NCBI GenBank assembly: GCA_034620365.1
Contig: JAQGEQ010000048.1
Coordinates: 372,001-436,000 of the forward strand
Reading direction: 5' to 3'
Length of the DNA: 64,000 bases
From: Pegea sp. RAD2-039
Lineage: Eukaryota > Chordata > Thaliacea > Salpida > Salpidae
Shown here: piece by piece, positions 16,274-47,327 of the stretch
Position numbering within the stretch: position 1 is the first letter of the stretch
Layout: every line of letters starts with the position of its first letter
Notes under the pieces: model-generated
Databases searched by the model: none
What the model saw: the letters and a program-made list of their open reading frames with translations, nothing else
What the model was told of the DNA's origin: nothing
Made by a program: the position numbers and the translations under genes

Positions 16274-17629
16274 CTAGTCTATAGCCTTTGAAATGTGATA
16301 TTGGTACAACAAATTCAAAAATTCAAATAAACTTATAAAAAAGTCCTTTTATAAAAAAAATTCAACAGTTCTAATTTCAGTTTGACTGAGCTTTTTTCGC
16401 ATAAGACCACATTTGTGGCTTGTACACGACTGATCAAAGATTGAACCACTAATTTTATATGTATGTAAGAGTACATTAGAAAAATTACTAAGAAAAATTT
16501 AAAGTGAATTTGAGATTTAACTTTAGTCTAATAGTCTGAAGTATACTTTTCGTTTTGTAAAAATTTAATAAGAAATTTTTAATTCAGGGCTTTGAAAAAA
16601 TTGAATAAAAAATCTTTAAACTAGATCAAAAATATTATCTTTTAATAATATAGAAACTAATGATATTCAGTAAAAAATGCTTGAAATAAACTTTATGTTT
16701 TAAACATCTAAATGCAATTTACTTATTTCCAAAATTGCCTGTGCTACATTTGTTAAAATTTAACTTTAGTTAATATCAGAGTCTTATAATCACTTTATTT
16801 TTTTAGACAAGCTGTTCAAGTTTAATCTACTGAAATCTATTATTATAATATTTTTTAATGATTTTTTTAATTCTTATAACTATTTTTTTTGATTTGTTAA
16901 AATTTTCATAACTATTCTGTTAGATTACATAAAAACTATAACTTATATTTGATTATAATAATTTCTTTTTGAAATCATTTATTTTTTGTGTTTACTTTTA
17001 AACTTATTAGCTATATATCTCTTTAATAAATAAGTTTTATAATGTACTGCATTTATCAATTTGATTTTTATGAATAAATTATTAACATTTGATACTAACT
17101 ATACTTTTAATGTAAAATCAATTATTATATTGTATACTTTTAGTTAGCTATCCAAGAGTTTCTTATTTGTTAGAATTATTATTATAACATTTGTGAATTA
17201 TCATACTAGTAAGCATATTGATAAGAAGTATTTATCGAATTATTTATTTTTTTATTTATATTAGCTTAATAAAAGTTTAATACTTATAAACCAAAAAATC
17301 ATTAAAAAAATTATAATTTTTTAGATCAAATTTAATCTTGAACTTTTTTAAATTTGGTTTTTAGTTATAATGGAATAATATAACTTATATTTTAAATGGT
17401 TTACTAAATAAATCTTTAGTATCTACTTTTTAAATTTCTTTTATTTTAATTATAATGTATTTTTGAATTAAGCTATATTTATAAGAACTTTAAAGTTTTT
17501 TATCTAATGCCCTAAAAGTTTATGGCTGATAGGTTGTTTTATGAAATTTATATATACTTATAAAACTTATTTGAGTAACAATTACTGCTTTTTTAAAGTT
17601 TTTCTTATTTTGATAAACTTTTGTTGATT

Positions 17630-18799
17630 ATGGAAAATACTAAAGAGCACCAACTTGTTCTAAGAGTAATGAGACTTGCTAAGCCTTCATTTCTATCAAA
17701 TATTCCGATTATGAGTGAAAATAATGATCTCACATCTACAAAAGACTCCTTAATTGAAGAACAATTTGTAAATAGCAATATCTTGCTGCTACCTCAAAGT
17801 TTTGGAAGTATATTTCTGGGTGAAACTTTTGTTTGTTATCTTAGTATAAACAATGATAGTGATAAAAGTGCATCAAATATCACATTAAAAGCTGATTTAC
17901 AAACTTCATCACAGAAAACCATCTTACTTCATGAAATGGTGGCTACAGATTTATCAAGTGGATGTTCAAATGATCATATAATATCTCATGAAGTAAAAGA
18001 ACTTGGTACGCATATGCTTGTATGTGCTGTGACTTATCATAATTCAGCCAATGAAAAAAAACTTTTTCGTAAATTTTTCAAGTTTGATGTACAAAAACCA
18101 TTAGATGTAAAGACAAAAAGTTTCAATGTAGATAGTAACAAGCTCTTTCTAGAAGCTCAGGTTCAAAATATTACAAAAGCACCAATCTGTATGGAAAAAG
18201 TTAGTATTGAGCCTTCACCTCTATATGTAAGTGAATCATTAAATACAATTAGTGAAGACAATGATGACAGCTTATCATACCTAAATCCTTATGAAATAAG
18301 ACAATATCTGTATATGTTGGAGTTAAAACCAGAATATTTCCATTTTTCATTGACAGATAGAGTTGCTACAATTGGAAAGTTAGATATTGTGTGGAGATCG
18401 AATCTTGGTGAGAGAGGGCGGTTACAAACGAGTCAATTACAAAGAACTGTTAATCAACAAGAAGATCTTAGTGTTAATGTCTTAGAGTTTGATGGAAAAT
18501 GTGTTCAGATGAAGCCTTTTATAATGAAATGTAATTTAACTAACCTCAGTGATGCACCTAAAAAACTGGAGCTTAATTTTATTGGTGAAAATTCGAATGT
18601 TTTAAGGTTGAAAATAACTGGTTTTACTGGTGGAGATATTGCTGCTAAAGAAATTAAACAATTTTCTATTTCATTATTTCCAACTTGTTCTGGACTTCAA
18701 GTTATCAGTGGATTGTGCATCAAAGAAGCTGGGACAAATAGATTATACAAGTTTGATGAATTACAGGTGTTATTGGTGTTGCCACAAGATAAAAACTGA
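17630..18799 (+). CDS. TRAPPC13: TRAPPC13, trafficking protein particle complex subunit 13
   Basis: A single uninterrupted 389-residue frame. It starts at the ATG at 17630 (MENTKEHQLVLRVMRLAKPS); the in-frame TTG nine bases upstream is not needed. It aligns over its length with animal TRAPPC13 (about 417 residues in human). Landmarks are LPQSFGSIFLGETFVCYLS, a HEVKELGTHMLVCAV stretch, RKFFKFDVQKPLDVKTKSF, and the near-invariant GKLDIVW..NLGERGRLQTSQLQR around residue 250-270. The protein is a beta-rich subunit of the TRAPP complex (TRAPPIII in animals), which activates Rab GTPases in ER-Golgi traffic and autophagy. It is intronless here although most neighbours are split, which may mean intron loss. 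AARS follows 340 bp downstream on the same strand. No AATAAA is seen close to the stop. Confidence 0.95.
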   Translation: MENTKEHQLVLRVMRLAKPSFLSNIPIMSENNDLTSTKDSLIEEQFVNSNILLLPQSFGSIFLGETFVCYLSINNDSDKSASNITLKADLQTSSQKTILLHEMVATDLSSGCSNDHIISHEVKELGTHMLVCAVTYHNSANEKKLFRKFFKFDVQKPLDVKTKSFNVDSNKLFLEAQVQNITKAPICMEKVSIEPSPLYVSESLNTISEDNDDSLSYLNPYEIRQYLYMLELKPEYFHFSLTDRVATIGKLDIVWRSNLGERGRLQTSQLQRTVNQQEDLSVNVLEFDGKCVQMKPFIMKCNLTNLSDAPKKLELNFIGENSNVLRLKITGFTGGDIAAKEIKQFSISLFPTCSGLQVISGLCIKEAGTNRLYKFDELQVLLVLPQDKN

Positions 18800-19139: not shown

Positions 19140-22097
19140 ATGGATTCTTCTTTAAAAGCTTCTCAAATTAGAAATATTTTCTACAAATTTTTTGAAGAAA
19201 AAAAGCAACATAAATATGTGCATTCATCTGGAACAATTCCGTTGGATGATCCAACTCTTCTCTTTACTAACGCTGGTATGAATCAGTTTAAGAACATTTT
19301 CCTTGGAACTATTGCTCCTTCTCACCCTCTTGCTAACTGCAAGCGGGCAGTTAACTCACAGAAGTGTATCCGGGCCGGTGGAAAACACAATGATTTAGAT
19401 GATGTTGGTAAAGACTCTTATCATCATACTTTTTTTGAAATGCTTGGTAGTTGGTCTTTTGGTGACTATTTTAAAGTCGAAGCGATCACGTGGGCGTGGG
19501 AACTTCTGACTGAAGTCTATAAAGTGCCGGCTGACCGCTTGTACGCCACTTATTTTGAAGGAAACTCTGAACTTGGTCTTGCACCTGATTTTGAGGCGCG
19601 TGATACTTGGTTGAAGTTCCTACCCGCTGACCGTGTACTAACTGGTGATATGAAAGATAACTTCTGGGAAATGGGAGATGTAGGTCCTTGTGGTCCATGC
19701 AGTGAGATCCATTACGATCGGATTGGTGGTCGAAATGCGGCTGCGTTGGTCAATCAAGATGACCCTGATGTATTGGAAGTTTGGAATCTAGTTTTTATGC
19801 AATTCAATCGTGAATCTGATGGAACATTGAAACAACTTGCAAAACAACATGTTGATACAGGTATGGGACTCGAACGGATTGTATCAGTCATCCAAGGACA
19901 TCGCTCTAACTACGATACTGACATGTTCTACCCAATATTTGATGCAATCCACGAAGGGACTGGAGCCCCACCTTACACTGGAAAGTTTGGAGATGAAGAC
20001 CCTCTACAGATAGACATGGCTTATCGAGTACTTGCCGACCACATTCGAACCTTGACCATCGCCATATCAGATGGGGGTCGACCACAAAGTACTGGTCGTG
20101 GGTATGTTTTAAGACGGATATTACGTAGAGCTGTGCGCTACGCTTCGGAGAAGCTGAACGCGAAGCCGGGCTTCTTTGGATCTCTTGTCCACACGGTCGT
20201 GAAGGTTCTTGGTGAAGCTTTCCCAGAGATCACAAAAGATCCACAAACAGTGATTGACATCTGTAATGAGGAAGAAGCACAGTTTTTGAAGACGTTGAAA
20301 CGCGGTAAAGCTGTTTTAGATCGAAAAATCGCCAATTTAGTTGAAGGAACAAAAGTATTTCCTGGTGATTATGCTTGGTTGTTGTATGATACTTATGGGT
20401 TCCCAGTTGATCTTACACAATTGATGACAGAAGAACACGGCCTTGCGATTGATCTTGATCAATATGAGAAGTCAAAGGAGATGTTCCGTGAAATGTCTCG
20501 CGGAACTAAAGATGTTGTTGATGATACAATTAAGTTAGATGTGCATTCACTAACTGATCTTCAAAACAGTAAAGTTCCAGCTACTGATGACTCTCACAAA
20601 TACAAATACCAAGCAGCAAGTGAAGGTACAAAATACCAGTTCAGTGGATGCAAAGGAAAGATTTTAAAGATTAGATACAACAAACAATTCGTATCAGAAG
20701 CAAGTACCGGACAAAAATGTGGAATTCTACTGGACAATACCTCGTTTTATGCTGAACAAGGTGGCCAGATATATGATACTGGCTACATGGTGAAGTCAAG
20801 TGACACTGAAACTGAATTTAAAGTCGATAATTGCCAAGTGCAAGGTGGTTATGTGCTTCATGTTGGTACTGTGGTCGGTGAATTGCGTGTGGATGATGTT
20901 CTTGAGTTGTTTATTGATGAAGATCGTCGTATGAGTATAATGAAAAATCATACATCAACTCATATTCTCAACTTCGGGCTAAGATGTGTCTTAGGAGAAG
21001 CTGATCAAAGAGGGTCACTGGTAGATTATGATCGATTGCGTTTTGACTTCACTGCTAAAAAGGCGATGTCTTCAAAAGAGATTAAAGAAACTGAAGATAT
21101 CTGTAAAGAGGTTCGTTGATAACTTTCCACAATTTGCTTTCAATTACAAAGTTTGTTACTTTTATAGGTGATCGCTAAAAAGTGTGACATCAGTGCCCAG
21201 GTTGCTGATCTGTCCAGGGCCAAAGCAATCATCGGTCTACGAGCAGTGTTCGATGAGACTTATCCTGATCCTGTTAGAGTCGTATCAATTGGAGTTCCTG
21301 TTGAAGATATTCTAGCTGATCCATCTTCAGATGCAGCTTTGAAAAATTCCGTTGAATTTTGTGGTGGAACTCATCTCTTAAACTCAGCTGATGCTAACGG
21401 GTTAGTTATCACAAGTGAAGAAGCAATCGCTAAAGGGATCAGAAGGATCGTTGCTGTAACTGGTGAAGATGCTGCAAAGATTGAAAGACGTTCGAATCTG
21501 TTGAAAGATGAACTTGATCTGATTGAATTAAAAAAATCCTCTGCGATAGAAAGTAATGAAGGTTTGAAAGTTGTTAGTAAAAAGTTGACGGAGTTTTTGG
21601 AAGAACTCTCACAAGCGACAGTTTCGCAATGGCAAAAGGATGTAATGAGAGAACGTGTTAAGGCTATGAAAAAAGAACTAGATGATATCGATCGTGCAGC
21701 TAAGATGGAGATGAAAAAGAAAGCTTTGGCAAGCGTTGAAGAAAAGATAAGTGAAAACCCGAACATGCCGGTAGTTGTTGAAGAATTACAAACTAATGGT
21801 GATTCGAAATCACTTAATATGGCTTTAAAAATCTACAAACAAAAATCTCCGGAAACTTCCGTGATGTTATTCAGTGTTGATTCCTCTGCAGATAAAATTG
21901 TTTGTTTGAGTCAAGTCTCTGCGAGTGCCTTGGAGAAGGGTCTTAAAGCAAATGAGTGGGTTTGTACTATTGCTGATTTAATCAAAGGAAAAGGAGGTGG
22001 TAAGCCTTCAAGTGCTCAAGCTACTGGTAAAAATCCTGATGCAATTAAAGAAGCTATTTCAATTTCTACTGAGTTTGCTCAGTTGAAACTTTTATGA
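19140..22097 (+). CDS. AARS1: Cytosolic alanyl-tRNA synthetase
   Basis: Two exons, 19140-21110 and 21168-22097, separated by a 57-bp phase-0 intron (GTTCGT..TATAG), give 966 residues against 968 in human AARS1. The enzyme charges tRNA-Ala with alanine and edits mischarged Ser or Gly. The class II catalytic domain comes first ([15 protein letters not shown] and [18 protein letters not shown] near residues 80-115). The editing domain carries the zinc and active-site residues HTSTH (His604, His608) and VEFCGGTHL (Cys722, His726), at almost the human numbering, so it looks fully functional. The C-Ala domain near the end contains [14 protein letters not shown]. The exon junction reads ICKE|VIAKK. 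AATAAA lies at 22113-22118, just past the stop. Confidence 0.97.
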
Positions 22098-38800: not shown

Positions 38801-39697
38801 ATTACAGAAAGCTTCTTCGACCCTGTTAACTCACATTCAGATGCAATACAAATCAACTATAAACTGGAAAAGCTGGGCTTGCATTCTCCAATTGAATTCA
38901 AACTGCTAGTATATGTTTGTGGTGGACTACAACCAGCGGGAATATCCTTTTCTAGCCCTCAATTAAACACAACTCCTAGCTATTACTGGCCCAATTATAT
39001 CAGCTGTAACTGGGTTTTCCAAATGCCACCAAAAACAAAATTGTTCTTTGTTAAAACTGAAGCTATGAAAGGTGAATTTAGTTTGTACATCATCAAAACT
39101 GAAGGGGTCTTCTTCAATATAACAGCTGATTCGAGTTTTATAAGATACCAAAACGAAAAAAATGAAAACTTTGATCCATTTCAATTAATTCCTAAAGCTC
39201 AACAAATTATTAGCAATCATATTAACGTTAACTCTAACTCAAGCTCTAAATTCAGTTTGGCCTTTAACAGCAAACAAGTTCAAATAAATTATCATACTAT
39301 TCATCCTACAGACGAAGAGTTGTTTATCGCAGTATTTGGTCCACATATGCAACAAACTGAGACCAAAAACCCACCATGGTATCTAAATTATTGCAATCTT
39401 GTCTTTTTTATTCCATTAGGACTAATCATAGGAATGATCTTTATTATTTATCAACACCGAGATACTATCGAAAGTCCTCAACCTCTGCGTCCAACTAAAA
39501 GAAAGTTGAGATCTAAAGCAGAAAGTAGAACATTATCAACTCAAGTTACTGAAAATAGGAAAAATAAAAAGATTATTTCAAGTCGCAATCAAAATGCAGA
39601 GAAGATTAAAAAGGATGATGAAAAGACTCAAGTTGATTCCCCCACAGATGTAGACCAACCTTTTTTACATAAAGAAGAACAAGCAACTTTTGATTAA
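35896..39697 (+). CDS. Two-CUB-domain single-pass membrane protein
   Basis: Four exons in consistent phase (35896-35989, 36098-36216, 38475-38619, 38808-39697) give 415 residues. Signal peptide: about residues 1-25 (YIFLFIHFLPKAES). The first CUB-like domain begins KIKPCGKNIYVTT (Cys37) with the partner ALSCEWII (Cys59). The second begins VCGGLQPAGISFSSPQLN (Cys157), with YYWPNYISCNWVF (Cys186). The pattern C-G-G, a strand, then yPxNxxCxW is that of CUB domains, which bind proteins or glycans outside the cell. One transmembrane helix spans about residues 316-334 (NLVFFIPLGLIIGMIFIIY). The lysine-rich cytoplasmic tail of about 80 residues has no known motif. The DxE calcium-site residues of CUB domains are not clear. 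Exon 3 lies 2.3 kb from exon 2. AATAAA is at 39786-39791. A known orthologue was not recognised. Confidence 0.8.
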
Positions 39698-40360: not shown

Positions 40361-43300
40361 TCAATACAAGGACCTTTTAAGAGACATAAAGTAAACGAAA
40401 GCAGATAAAAAGAATAAATGAGCAAACGAAATCTTCTGCATTTGTGAGCTTCTGTTTGAAAGCAATTTCTCCTGAATTTCAAGATGATACAGAGCAATTG
40501 AAGCGACGTGAAGAGCAGCGTTTGTATCAAGGGAGACTCGACTTTGTGCTTCATTTGTACGTAAATCTTCGAACTTATCGTTTTCATCAGGACCTCCAAC
40601 AAGAGCACCTATCAAAGTCTGAAAAACATCAAGTTTAAGTGATATTTGATCTCTAGCAAACATTTCTTAGAATTGGTAGTAAATAAGCCAATAATTGAAA
40701 CTGATAACTGGTAGCTTTTTGATTAAAATTTACTTGAAGGTTCGCTGAGTTTCTGTTTTTAAACGACAAGCCACAAGGTTTTGTCAAAGGGCAGGAACTC
40801 CCCTTATGCTGGGGCTGGAGAGGCCATATATCACCATAATCAACAATATAACTTTGTCCAGTAGTAAGTCCACTTAGGTAGTTTATTTGGTTCCTCGCAA
40901 GATCCTTCCATTTGTGAGCATTTTTATAATTTGGAAAATATTCAAACGCCAAAACAAGTATAAATGCTGCATTTGCTAAAAAGATGATGAATGGAAATCA
41001 TTTTGGTCAAATGTTTTCAGTTTAATTTTTCTCAAATAACCTCACCTGCATATTTAGAAGGTTGAGTGGAACGTAGATACAAAAGTCCTGCAGGTGTTCT
41101 TGGAGCCTTGAACAATAAATAATCACAAAAAGGTGCAATTTGTTCAACATCTTCATTTTCAATTGCTAACAAGAGGTTCACTCCAGCCTATCAAAAATTG
41201 TTGTAAATTTTCTTTTAAAACTTTCATTATTCTACAAACGTTTATATCAGTTTCATTCATTATTAGAAACTAAATGTATTGTTCTCAAAACTAAAGCTGC
41301 AGTGAATTCTTTTAATAGAAAATTATCAAACGTAATTGAGGTAAACAAACTTACAATCTCCCTAATAACTAAGCTTAATGCTAACTTTGAAGCTAAAGTT
41401 ATTTTTACCATGCATTAGAAGTATTTTAATTTAATGATGCCATCTTTAAATTCAACTTAACTAAATTCAATTTGAAATTATATTTAGTTTCATTTCTATC
41501 GTTAGAACTATCTATTAGCGTAATGAATAATTATCAAAGTATTCTTTAGACTAACCCACTTTTCATCCCAAGAAAACGTTTTTGGTAAAATTTCAGTGTC
41601 ATAAATACTGTTTAAATATTGTATTTTTCCACTGCATTTATACAGCCAAAAGGCAGCCCACATGGTCTCATCTTCAAAACCTGAAGATCTGAAAAGGAAT
41701 ACTACTTCAGTTAAGTTTGAATAAAATAAATACTGAATGTAAAAATCTTTGTTTTAAACAGATCTATTTCAGATAAACATTTATAAGATTTAATAACAGC
41801 TTTTTAACTAGTTTTAGGTAAATGTTACTTTTTGTTTAAATAAATTCAAATAATAATGATTAAAGTAAAAATCTTTGATGAAAGCTGTTAATGACTTATA
41901 ATACTGTTCTGCAGCAGGGACACTTTCATGATAAAGTACTGGGTCTCCATATAAAGTTAGATTTTCAAAAATCCACTGAGCTCTCATACACATTATTAAA
42001 GGTGTTTCTGGTCCTAAATATACAAAGTTTAAAATTAAGTTGATCTCAACTTCTTCACTTATATCTCTAACCATCATCATAATCCAATTCACGAAACAAT
42101 ACAGAAGTAGCCGCAAGTGCTGCTGCCATTTCTGCAGTGAAGTCTCTTCCATTATTTGCTCTAGTGATCAGATAGCTAGGTCGCGTTTCTTCTATTTGAT
42201 CTGGTCGAGTCCATTCTTCTGTCTCTGGATTTCCTATTTGTGCAACTATTTCAAAACTAAAACGTAAAACAGTTGGTTAAAATTAGATTCTTTTTGGATG
42301 AATTCTTAACTTTGTTTATTAAATACTTTTTAGTATTTCAACTTAATTTTAAAATACTTGAATCTCAATAAAAACAAAATAAAAGTAGTATCAGTAATGC
42401 TTTTTGATTTTTTTTTCATTTTGACATCATTTATTTGATTAATATTTATTTGCAAACTTTTCAATATGAGTCTTTGTGATGTATTGTATTCCCCAGTTTA
42501 GTGCATCAATTGTCAAAATATATTGCTTGCTTTTATGGTAGGCAATCGGAAACTCTATCAAACTCCAAGAAAGAAGTGTCATTGAGAAGCAGAGTGGAAA
42601 CCCAAACTTAACGTTTGTGAAACCTGATAAAGATGAAATAAAAAAAATTAAAGCAATAAACAATCGAAATAAACTTCAAAAAAAGTCTTATTAACCATCA
42701 TAGTATCCTCCTTGTAAATCTTTACCAATATCCTTCCCGTCATTCACACAAGAGTCTGTTCGCCAAGATATTTTATTGTCAGAAGTTAAGTATCCAGATC
42801 TATAACAATTATAATCTGTACTCAAATTTAAAATCTTTTTTCTACCTTTGAGCTTCGAAAAACATCAATGATTTTCGTAAGATCTGCGGATAGTCTGGAT
42901 GCAGGTTTTCTTTCGGATCTTGTATGATTATTTTTGGTGGAGGAAGTTTGACTGAGTTAAAAAATTAAAATAATTTCAACAAAACTTAATAATTCATTTT
43001 TAACCTTCAGGTACGGTTATAGTACCAGGACTATCGTAATGAGGTCTGTAATCTGATCCATATAAATAGAAATCCAATAAAGAAGCGGCGCACGATTGAA
43101 ATCTAAAGAAAGTTAAAAATTTGAAATTTCAATTCCATGAAGTCTAAAGATTTAAGAAATTTTCACCCTGCATTAAAATCAAGGGTCACGCTATTTTGCT
43201 TCTCGTTGCTTCTTTGATCCATAAACGCATCATCAGCAGAAGGGCCACCAATGACTGCTCCGACCAGTTGAAAACTAAAATTTAAGACTATAAGTTACTA

Positions 43301-45348
43301 ATTTCGTTCTAATTCGATAACCCACTTGTTAGGGAGCTTATCATCGAAACGTGGACAAGGTGCTGGAGGAAGAGGACAAAAACTGGATTTATGGTAAGGA
43401 AACAGAGGATAGTTGTTTCCAAAATCAATTTGATAGCTTCTTCCGTAGGAGCCCAAAATATAATTAATCTGACTTTCCGCCAAGTTTCTAAAAATAAAAT
43501 TAATGTAGGTATCGTGTGAAGACAAACTATTTTAAAAGTAAACCTATTTTCTTTTGGATTAATGCCAAGATCAGCTACAATTGAACATATAAATGCAGTG
43601 TTTGCTGCGTATCTTAAAGGTCCCCATTCATTTATATACAACAAACCACCAGCAGTGTAATGAGATTGAACTCCAAACTCGTTCATTCTTACTTGAGCAG
43701 AATATTGGCAAAACCTACAGATAGTCGTTTGTCAATTTGTACAAAATTAAGAGCTTTTTGTAAATTTTAATTGATTTCTTATACAAGTATACCATTGTGC
43801 ATGTGTTCTGTATTTTTGCTTTTTAGTAATTTCAGCCATAAGAGTTTGTATGCCCGCTTTTTTATCATTCCAAGAAAATTCTCTTGCCTATAAAAATAGA
43901 TTAACCACTTATCTAAAATGAAACATTTATTCAAATCGATATTTACTTAAATCATTTACTTCAGTGAATCTTTTAAACTTAGAACAAAGTAGTCACTTAC
44001 CAGACTTCCCATTTTCCATTCTCTATATCCTTTTTCAGCAGCTTTAAGGTAATAGTCTGATCCTGTTCGCCTGTACAGCCAAGCTGCTGCCCATACTAAT
44101 TCATCTTTAAAGTCTTTTTTTCCTGACCTATAATTTTTTTACATCAAAAGTTAATTTATTCAATCCTAATAAAAAAGCCAAATTGCTTAAGACAACTTTT
44201 ATTTAGAGTAATTGTTTGAAAGCAGTGTTTACATGTACGACTGCTCGGCTTCTGCAATAGATTCGCTGTAAGACCCTCGAAAATTAAAAGCAAATTCGTA
44301 AAGTTCTTCTGCGTGTTTTAGTAATTGCTTAGAATACGCTGGGTCAGTTGGTTGAAACACTATTGATGCAGAAGCAAGTGCAGCTGATGTTTCAGCAGCT
44401 AGATCTGAACCTAAAAACATACGGATATATACAAGACATCATTTTAAAAGATTAAAATCTAATAAAGAAGGCAGTTTTTGAAATAAAATCATCACACCTG
44501 GTTTCTGCTCATTAATTTTAAATGATTTTCGTTTGTAATTGTTCGGATTCATGTTTTGTGGCACTCCTTGAAATTGTCGGTCAGAAGCCTTATCGCCAAC
44601 CTTTAAATAAATCAATAAATAAAAAAGTTCGATAATTTCAAGTTTTAAAGAAGTTTTTTAATTAAAGAAGAAAATTTAGTTTTACAAAAAGTTAGTGGTC
44701 TTACGCTAACCTGAGCATAGAACTCATTTGTGTCACTATGACATTTGATAAAGTAATCAGTTGCCCATCTTATAGTATCAAAGGCATATTGTAACTGATC
44801 AATAACATCATAAGCTCGTCGATATCTAATCACACCCCAAGCTAAAACTGTTGTCATTGCTGCTTGAGGAAAACCATACTTTACATATCCAGCACCTGTA
44901 AACAATTTATGTGATAAAAGAAATATTAAAGTATGACAACCATCATAATATCCTCCAACCAAATCAACACCATTGTCTTCTCCATCATGAAGCGCCGAGT
45001 TCTTTCTCCATTTAACTCGTTGGTTACCAGGCAATAAACCTGATCGTTGAGCCTCATAGAAGAGCATACTTTTAGCAATAGCCTCAGCATAGTTGTATCT
45101 GTAAAGTTAAATCTCAAACTGTACAGTTGTCCGCTTAGTTAAATATTAATGAATGGATTTATGTACAGCCTTTTCTGATAGTTTAAAATATGTTGAAATT
45201 AATTGAGTTTAATAAAAGCAGTGCCGTGAATACTTTTTTTCTTACTTAGGCTTTTTGCTAACATATTTCAAATTTGGAAACGAAAAAGTGGTTTCTTGGC
45301 TTGAATGAAAAGGATCATCTGATCTATCGATCGCATCTACTTGCTCAT
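40361..45348 (-). CDS. Tandem double GH9 (cellulase-family) protein, both domains lacking catalytic residues
   Basis: Twenty exons in unbroken phase: 45348-45246, 45098-44941, 44895-44711, 44600-44498, 44410-44233, 44127-44001, 43887-43793, 43714-43544, 43487-43326, 43274-43167, 43102-43005, 42951-42846, 42799-42696, 42623-42458, 42256-42072, 42013-41896, 41688-41556, 41187-41046, 40975-40734 and 40618-40361. They encode at least 979 residues; the signal-peptide exon upstream was not found. Numbering here starts at the first partial codon. Domain 1 is about 36-490 (SMLFYEAQRSGLLP, YVKYGFPQAAMTTVLAWG, DELVWAAAWLYRRTG, GAVIGGPSADDAFMDQRSNE). Domain 2 is about 500-940 (SLMFFEAQRSGYL, LVGGPDENDKFEDLRTNE). 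GH9 enzymes cut beta-1,4-glucans using a DAGD Asp, an active-site His and a Glu. Here the second Asp is Gly90 and Thr569, the His is Tyr405 and Gln870, and the Glu is Ser456 and Arg922. The WGRPE-type substrate loop of domain 1 reads FQGVPQ. A hydrophobic C-terminus (FAHLFFLSAFVYFMSL) suggests membrane attachment. Confidence 0.88.
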
Positions 45349-47327
45349 CTAAAAATTGTAAAATAGGGTGTCATTAAAATGATAAAAAAAAATTAAGTAT
45401 ATTGGACCATAAGTAATTTCAGATTTTACTTCTTTGAACTTTTTAGAACTTTAAAAATAGATGGTGGAGTACAAACATACATTACTTAAGATAAGCAACA
45501 ATAGTTTGATGGTATAACAAATAAATAAATTAAAGCAACACCTTACGATAAATTTCAATTCTTTAAAAGTTATTAAACTATTTTTGAGATTTAATAATTA
45601 TGGCAAAAGTATTTTCTTTACTAATAGTAAGACTGAACAAAAACTTTCACCAGTTTCAAATAGGCCTTCAACTTCCAAAAATATGTAGCTTGTATAGAAA
45701 AATAAGCAAATGTATGTACTTTTCATTATAAAAATAAGCTAACTAATAAATACTAATAAAATGTTCTACTATCTTTTCAAAAATATGTTATAAACATTTA
45801 GATAGAAGCTATCTATTTGCCTCATAAACGACAAGTTTTTATATGAAAACTTTGTAAAAAGATTGACACAGTTGTAAAAACGCCCGAAGGCTTAATTTTG
45901 ATTTAAAACTAGAAATGATATACTGAATAATAAACGCACTAATAGTAATTTTTGTAAAAAAGGTACCTTTAAACTACCTAAATCTAAGCAAAAATATTTT
46001 TCTAATTTTTAACAATAACTTAGCATAAGTAAAACAACAAAAGTAAATAATTAAAGTTATTGATAGATAATGCAAAGCATTTTGTGCATGTAGAAAACAA
46101 CAAATAATAAATTAGATCTCTTGAAAAGTTTGACTGGTTGTGTACTATCCGCTAATGGCTTAATAATTTAATTTTTAATCGATTTATAAAACATTGAAAC
46201 TGTAACAGAACATAATATAACTTTTAGTATTTCAGGAAAATTCGATGCAATCGAATAATTTTTTTAACAAGCTTTAATTGGCTGAGCCTTTAGCAGAACT
46301 CTGTGAATTAATTTATCAATACGCAATGCAATAATAGCAATATCTGCTTCCTGCAAAGTATTCGAAAGTAATTCAACCACATAGATTTTATCGAAGCATT
46401 AAGATTCTGGTGTAATGATAAAATTATCATACTACACATGAAGAGCAATATTAGGTATGCCAAATCGATTCTTATATTTTATTTCTTTTAGCAGTTTAAA
46501 CACTTTTCCTTGTAGCAAAAATCTGCTGAATCTTATTCTGCGGCATTCTTTGCTGCCAATAACCTCTATCATTTATTCTGTGTATTTTTACGTTTTAGGA
46601 AAAATTTATTAATTGACAGCGATTAGTTAGTGTAATAGCATTTCTAAATAGCTATTTTAGGTGCAAATAAAGTAGCAAGTATTAAAAGGCAAAACTAGTA
46701 CTTATAGTCTTAAGTCAGTGACTTTTGTTTTCAAAGGTACTAAAAAATTACTAAAATATAATAATTAGCATACTTAGTATAAACTAGGATATTCAGAAAC
46801 AATAGAAATAGTTTAATTTATCAGTAACTTTTACAGTTCTTGTTTTATAATTGTCATCCAAAAAACTTATTTGATTAATATCCAACTTTTTGAAACTCTT
46901 TTATTAAACTATGAGTTAAAATAAATTTTTAAATGACTAAGGATACTTGTTTTTATAATTCACAATAGTTTTAAGAAATTCCTAATTTTAAGAACTCATT
47001 ACAAACAGCCTATTGCAATATGAAAAAAGGAGTTGGAAATTTAAGTATATAAAATTCAAATTAGTCGGATTATATTATTTTTAGCATGTAGTAGACAAAA
47101 GTTTTTAACAGTTTATCGACGGTACTATGAATAAGAAAACTCTTTTTTTAGTTCAAAAATTGTGCGCCTTTTAATTTCAAACAACAGCTGTGTACTGTTA
47201 TCGCTTTTATTGTAATATTTTTGGATTTTAGAATTACTACTCGACAATTCAAGATTTGCTTATCTGAAATTGTTATAAAGTAATTGCAAAAACAAGAATT
47301 TTATTTAAAAGCATACAGATTTTACGG
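45349..47327. other. Divergent region between the GH9 gene and the Y-box gene
   Basis: It should contain both 5' ends. The missing GH9 signal-peptide exon must end in phase 1, one base before the acceptor at 45349, and no ATG frame here satisfies this cleanly. A hydrophobic reverse frame from the ATG at 46382 (MWLNYFRILCRKQILLLL) has its only donor in phase 0 and would need a bridging exon. No other feature seen. Confidence 0.45.

Follow-up and report, generated by a model that had tools for sequence, protein, structure and literature searches.

The window analysed here, a stretch of 64,000 nucleotides from Pegea sp. RAD2-039 (positions 372001-436000 of contig C262, in a genome assembly of 105.7 Mb and 387 contigs), carries on its minus strand a predicted gene (45726..40361) of 21 exons, whose 3009 nt of coding sequence and TGA stop (40363-40361) specify a 1003-residue protein with two fused domains of glycoside hydrolase family 9 (GH9). 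By its sequence it is a predicted double-GH9 pseudoenzyme, in which the family sequence has been kept and the catalytic residues have been lost. Exon 1 (45651..45726), placed by its splice junction, supplies the ATG and a putative signal peptide, MKSTYICLFFYTSYIFLEVEG, recognized by eye; GH9 domain 1 occupies exons 3 to 12 (43075..45097), an interdomain linker (42896..43074) is interrupted by a 53-nt intron (43004-42952), and GH9 domain 2 takes up exons 13 to 21 (40490..42895), all on the minus strand. The protein ends in a hydrophobic tail, ISFAHLFFLSAFVYFMSLKRSLY (40364..40432, minus strand), a possible membrane or glycosylphosphatidylinositol anchor, which provides the top hydropathy windows of the whole protein (1.85 over 15 residues, 1.52 over 19), with some in-domain stretches being nearly as hydrophobic (1.69 and 1.41, respectively). 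An earlier sequence-only reading had described a chain of twenty exons in 40361..45348; this interval does hold exons 2 to 21, and the first exon (45726-45651), which lies outside it, had been missed.

Exons were located with a purpose-written spliced aligner that joins codons across introns, using a profile of the PDB chains 1ks8 and 3wc3, the termite and earthworm endoglucanases. The query for the full-gene model was the joined protein, hand-read from a six-frame translation list, and the exon chain is a prediction. As the aligner permits GT..AG introns only, the splice dinucleotides are present by construction and carry no weight as evidence; the actual support for the model is the gap-free coverage of the GH9 sequence by the exon chain. 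The 1003-codon frame has no internal stop in the spliced alignment, each domain is recovered separately from the minus strand, and the GC content by codon position is 0.471, 0.388 and 0.277 vs 0.229 in the introns. Given a predicted chain whose linker and leader exons were connected on the basis of splice rules, the model might have merged two adjoining genes. We consider this very improbable, since no stop and only the one 53-nt intron lie between the domains, another locus of the genome (C374, below) holds a further predicted fused pair, and both genes would be dead even if separate.

Both copies are full GH9 domains. A PF00759 profile search, which had been proposed as a check, returned two stretches of the gene model at E 2.2e-224 (746 bits), the best of which spans residues 63-492 over profile positions 1-442 of 444. 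In PDB searches made with hand-read domain versions, a few junction residues of which are different in the final model, domain 1 matched 1ks8 best (E 1.8e-122, 1-439 of 441) and domain 2 matched 8ihw (E 6.2e-80, query 2-421 of 424), which marks the second copy as a full domain; identity to 1ks8 is 48.2% for domain 1 and 38.0% for domain 2. The earlier claim of two GH9 folds in a single polypeptide is thus borne out by the two profile stretches, the PDB matches and the one open frame, and the spacing between the YYD and GFP motifs is, as it had been reported, 13 residues in both domains of the final model.

Residues are numbered here after T. fusca E4 (1js4), and the active-site His is that of the PHxR motif. 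In GH9 enzymes the base function involves D55 and D58, and the acid is a Glu, which the source numbers 461 (PMC4221708). Both window domains retain D55. At the catalytic base position (D58), domain 1 has Gly (GGA, 44888..44890) and domain 2 has Thr (ACA, 42616..42618); the active-site His (H376) is replaced by Tyr (TAC, 43394..43396) and Gln (CAG, 40809..40811), and the catalytic acid (E424) by Ser (AGC, 43190..43192) and Arg (CGA, 40538..40540), respectively, with all six codons read from the minus strand. The alignment thereby reproduces the losses listed in the sequence-only reading. Moreover, all six codons are exon-internal, and at least 2, 1 and 3 nt (base, His, acid) in domain 1 and 3, 1 and 2 nt in domain 2 separate them from a catalytic codon, which makes base-calling error or other splicing an unlikely cause and upholds the view that these are substitutions and not splicing errors. 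H125 and Y429 are changed too in the alignment of both domains, with the H125 assignment of domain 2 being unsure, as it adjoins an alignment gap.

The window gene has company in the same genome. Among 31 scored candidates, a PF00759 search found 41 exon-level matches, which is a lower bound, and these resolve into at least seven GH9 loci (C15, C59, C6, C374, C18, C3 and the window locus on C262) with nine modelled domains. Three of the loci (C15, C59 and C6) keep D55, D58, H376 and E424 and are catalytic-looking. The acid Glu is missing from six of the nine domains, at four loci, and in five of these six the base is missing too; we refer to these six as the dead domains. In both domains of C374, Gly occupies position 58, Tyr position 376 and Lys position 424. 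A two-profile model passes through the two without a stop, which makes this locus (C374:185495-181930) another predicted GH9-GH9 fusion. In the C3 domain (C3:2704500-2712500, with two introns longer than 1 kb) the His is intact, position 58 is occupied by Gly and position 424 by Asp; its Glu to Asp replacement is a mild change, though the base is also lost. The C18 domain (C18:254000-259500) retains D58 and H376, and its residues 55 and 424 are Val and Ala, respectively. The final exons of 7-8 nt modelled for C6 and C18 are probably spurious.

To place these losses against the background of each domain, we used 106 columns without variation among six catalytic GH9s (E4, 1ks8, 3wc3, C15, C59 and C6), of which window domain 1 keeps 84, window domain 2 70, the C374 domains 74 and 75, C18 80 and C3 81. 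Seven residues, namely A56, A107, H125, Y420, E424, A426 and Y429, are changed in all six dead domains. Active-site columns were defined from 18 E4 positions, with their letters compared with E4: W129 and D422 had a mismatched letter, F205, W209, W256, D261 and Y318 were not invariant, and the remaining 11 were used. Losses fall at 7 of these 11 positions vs 15 of the 95 other columns in window domain 1 (p 0.0013), 8/11 vs 28/95 in window domain 2 (p 0.0068), 8/11 vs 24/95 and 8/11 vs 23/95 in the C374 pair (p 0.0027 and 0.0021) and 6/11 vs 19/95 in C3 (p 0.02), the p-values being favourable to the extent that D55, D58, H376 and E424 also served to define the domains as dead. In C18 there is no active-site enrichment (4/11 vs 22/95, p 0.27), which, together with its retained base and His, makes it the weakest member of the dead set. 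Going by these alignments, a concentration of losses at the active site is thus a feature of five of the six dead domains, with C18 as the exception.

The same columns bear on whether the window protein is still an enzyme with an altered chemistry or substrate, for instance one whose acid has moved. In each window domain a Glu is found at E4 position 420, which precedes the missing acid by four residues; this Y420E change is exclusive to these two among the six dead domains, and D55 persists in both. We nonetheless regard continued catalysis as improbable, as D58, H376, H125 and Y429 are gone as well, and an Arg stands at the place of E424 in domain 2.

The gene may be maintained by selection, as its open frame, simulated decay and branch lengths suggest within this one genome. 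When substitutions are drawn at random with a spectrum that follows the base composition of the introns, 7.5% of those in the coding sequence of the window gene create a stop, 22.6 stops are expected at 10% neutral divergence, and the open frame and splice sites bound neutral divergence at about 1%, with indels not counted. Because the aligner could route introns around stops, it was also run on randomly mutated copies: clean models came from 1 of 10 copies at 1% divergence, 1 of 10 at 2% and none of 10 at either 5% or 10%, and the real sequence gives a clean model in the same aligner, a comparison that favours the real sequence in that the query was the gene model itself. A recently dead gene heading for decay would account for the lost catalytic residues and the long branch of domain 2, and a neutral divergence of 1-2% fits with the single clean run at each of these levels. 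Yet the frame is open over all 21 exons, four of the six codons at catalytic positions are two or three nucleotides away from their catalytic counterparts, and the losses are concentrated at the active site, which leaves recent death as a faint prospect. On the strength of the frame and the simulations, which bear out the earlier view of an intact gene, decay of the window gene appears unlikely. The end branch of window domain 1 (0.90) is of a length also seen among the catalytic paralogues (C15 0.54, C6 0.81, C59 0.96); that of window domain 2 is 2.13, and the other dead domains have 1.12 and 0.74 (C374), 1.07 (C18) and 1.52 (C3).

The sequence-only reading had also proposed a parallel loss in the two domains. 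The residues are indeed lost in both; that the losses arose in parallel is not established, as a single loss preceding an internal duplication would also be compatible with the tree and intron evidence that follows. Tree A (11 rows, with the catalytic columns removed and a first model of domain 1) gave p-values of the approximately unbiased test (p-AU) of 0.040 for the six dead domains as one clade, 0.048 for the four tandem domains, 0.371 for the first domains of the window gene and C374 together and 0.005 for the window pair together, which is rejected; the C374 pair is found together (87/89). Tree B (12 rows, all columns, E4 added as an outgroup and a corrected domain 1) gave 0.214 for the six dead domains, 0.192 for the five without C3, 0.159 for the four tandem domains and 0.114 for the window pair. 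In a tree without window domain 2, p-AU is 0.178 for five dead domains and 0.400 for four, and window domain 1 joins the C374 pair (81/87). C3 groups with the catalytic-looking C15 and C6 both in tree B and in the tree without window domain 2 (84/87 and 88/89), and no inner branch in any of the three trees reaches the starred support level.

Shared states and introns add to this picture. A107C and A426S each occur in five of the six dead domains; six columns shared among the dead domains are not unusual, with 74 of 924 six-row subsets reaching six, and the window pair ranks 13th of 66 pairs in exclusive shared states. An intron at column 223 in phase 2 is found in three of the nine domains, namely both window domains and C374 domain 1, and one at the DAGD codon is common to seven of the nine, including the catalytic-looking C15 and C6. 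It is the p-AU of 0.114 for the window pair in tree B and their shared intron position that allow for one loss before the duplication; a single early loss and several losses may both fit the dead GH9 domains.

Some of the paralogues are predicted to bear additional modules, which come from pieces picked by eye and whose membership of the same transcripts is putative. C59 has an N-terminal CBM_2 domain at E 1.4e-6, over the Pfam cut-off; in hand-joined N-terminal pieces, matches below the cut-off are seen in C6 (0.0018), C3 (0.16) and C374 (0.24) and none in C15. A CBM2 module is accordingly shown for C59 and is a lead for C6, C374 and C3. A genome search with PF00553 gave no matches and missed C59 too, and is uninformative on the window. 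Upstream of the C18 domain, on the same strand, lies a thyroglobulin type-1 repeat (E 3.7e-10), the sole match in a Pfam scan of five pieces; C374 has a Thr/Ser-rich stretch after its domain 2, and C3 has an acidic stretch and a weakly CBM2-like stretch upstream of its GH9 domain. In the window gene no thyroglobulin repeat or Thr/Ser-rich stretch was seen, and its only additions are the leader-like exon 1 and the hydrophobic tail. Downstream of the C3 GH9 domain (C3:2700500-2705500), frames resembling pieces of a reverse transcriptase were noticed by eye.

We posit, with about even confidence, that the window gene encodes a kept and exported GH9 pseudoenzyme that would serve as a glycan-binding/adhesive or matrix protein. 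The N-terminal leader MKSTYICLFFYTSYIFLEVEG would export the protein, and the hydrophobic tail would perhaps hold it at the cell surface. Its two clefts, with their remaining sugar-contact residues, could bind a glycan, for example a beta-glucan of algae or of the matrix, and leave it uncut; being bivalent, the protein would then have a lectin-like, adhesive or matrix role, with digestion left to the three catalytic-looking GH9 genes of the same genome. Sugar binding may be possible in view of the residues retained, as Y206 and Y318 are kept in both domains, W313 and R317 in domain 1 and W128 in domain 2. The three further dead GH9 loci, one of them also a fused pair, count in favour of this proposal. 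The sequence-only reading, too, had put forward glucan binding or a structural matrix protein as a candidate new role.

Several points weigh against the proposal. The leader and anchor calls come from visual inspection and hydropathy, the case for constraint draws on a single genome, and no CBM2-like module was found in the window gene, with upstream frames inspected by eye and the model searched with Pfam, in contrast to C59. Moreover, domain 1 lacks W128 and domain 2 lacks W313, and in view of these losses and of the long end branch of domain 2 the two clefts might bind no glucan at all. An alternative is a retained protein without catalysis for which the GH9 fold is a scaffold in a matrix structure or in signalling, with no sugar binding; this would sit well with the apparent lack of a CBM2-like module, with the loss of H125 and Y429 from both domains besides the catalytic residues, and with the erosion of cleft residues. 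As Y206, Y318 and some other cleft residues remain, we see such a pure scaffold as rather unlikely, if a genuine competitor to the glycan-binding proposal. When genome contigs were scanned for orthologues with domain 1 as the query, the 17 pattern stretches obtained included no relative, with no other eukaryote searched. In the genome of the window, a bdelloid spliced-leader 23-mer had 0 hits at one mismatch and a Brachionus manjavacas mlh3 guide 0 hits at two mismatches. Tentatively, and with more doubt than confidence, the proposal might be extended to the whole cutting-dead GH9 family (four loci, six domains and two fused pairs), which could then comprise glycan receptors, adhesins or matrix proteins at the feeding or body surface; such a family would outnumber the catalytic-looking GH9s by domains, and the window gene would be its tailed, two-headed member.

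Glycoside hydrolase folds have non-catalytic roles in animals in the GH18 chitinase-like proteins, GH1 klotho and alpha-lactalbumin; these belong to unrelated families and their functions were shown by experiment, whereas the window gene is known from sequence. Its domains belong to the same family as the animal GH9 endo-beta-1,4-glucanases (1ks8, 3wc3), but, unlike these enzymes with all catalytic residues present, it has two fused domains from which the base, His and acid are gone. Another parallel is offered by the GH45 genes of Phytophaga beetles, which are likewise duplicated animal cellulase-family genes: several duplicates are inactive on the tested substrates and two have a catalytic residue replaced (PMC6509783). 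They differ in belonging to another family and in having one catalytic residue replaced per case, in contrast to the two fused domains with several losses each in the window gene. In tunicates, CesA carries a GH6 domain and Gh6 is called most likely a functional cellulase (PMC10986139), and these too are cellulase-family domains in animals outside digestion; unlike the window gene, they are GH6 proteins tied to the cellulose tunic. We found no animal GH9 pseudoenzyme or fused GH9 pair in the accessible portions of the open-licence literature, subscription papers being mostly outside the search. Glycoside hydrolase pseudoenzymes are known (beetle GH45, PMC6509783), and the window GH9 pair is a variant of this theme.

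Animal GH9 genes are believed to date to the ancestor of all animals (PMC4221708), and they are treated as cellulases. The lack of the acid Glu in six of nine domains, in which the frame and much of the conservation are kept, would show an old digestive family being reused; counts of GH9 genes in animal genomes do not equal counts of cellulases, and the present set of paralogues lets the loss of catalysis be tested directly.

Among the neighbouring genes of the window, an open frame on the plus strand (38879-39697) stands tail to tail with the GH9 gene and encodes a hydrophobic segment and a charged tail with no Pfam match. Further away, two long open frames on the plus strand correspond to TRAPPC13 (17621-18799; Pfam) and, by eye, to alanyl-tRNA synthetase (19140-22097).

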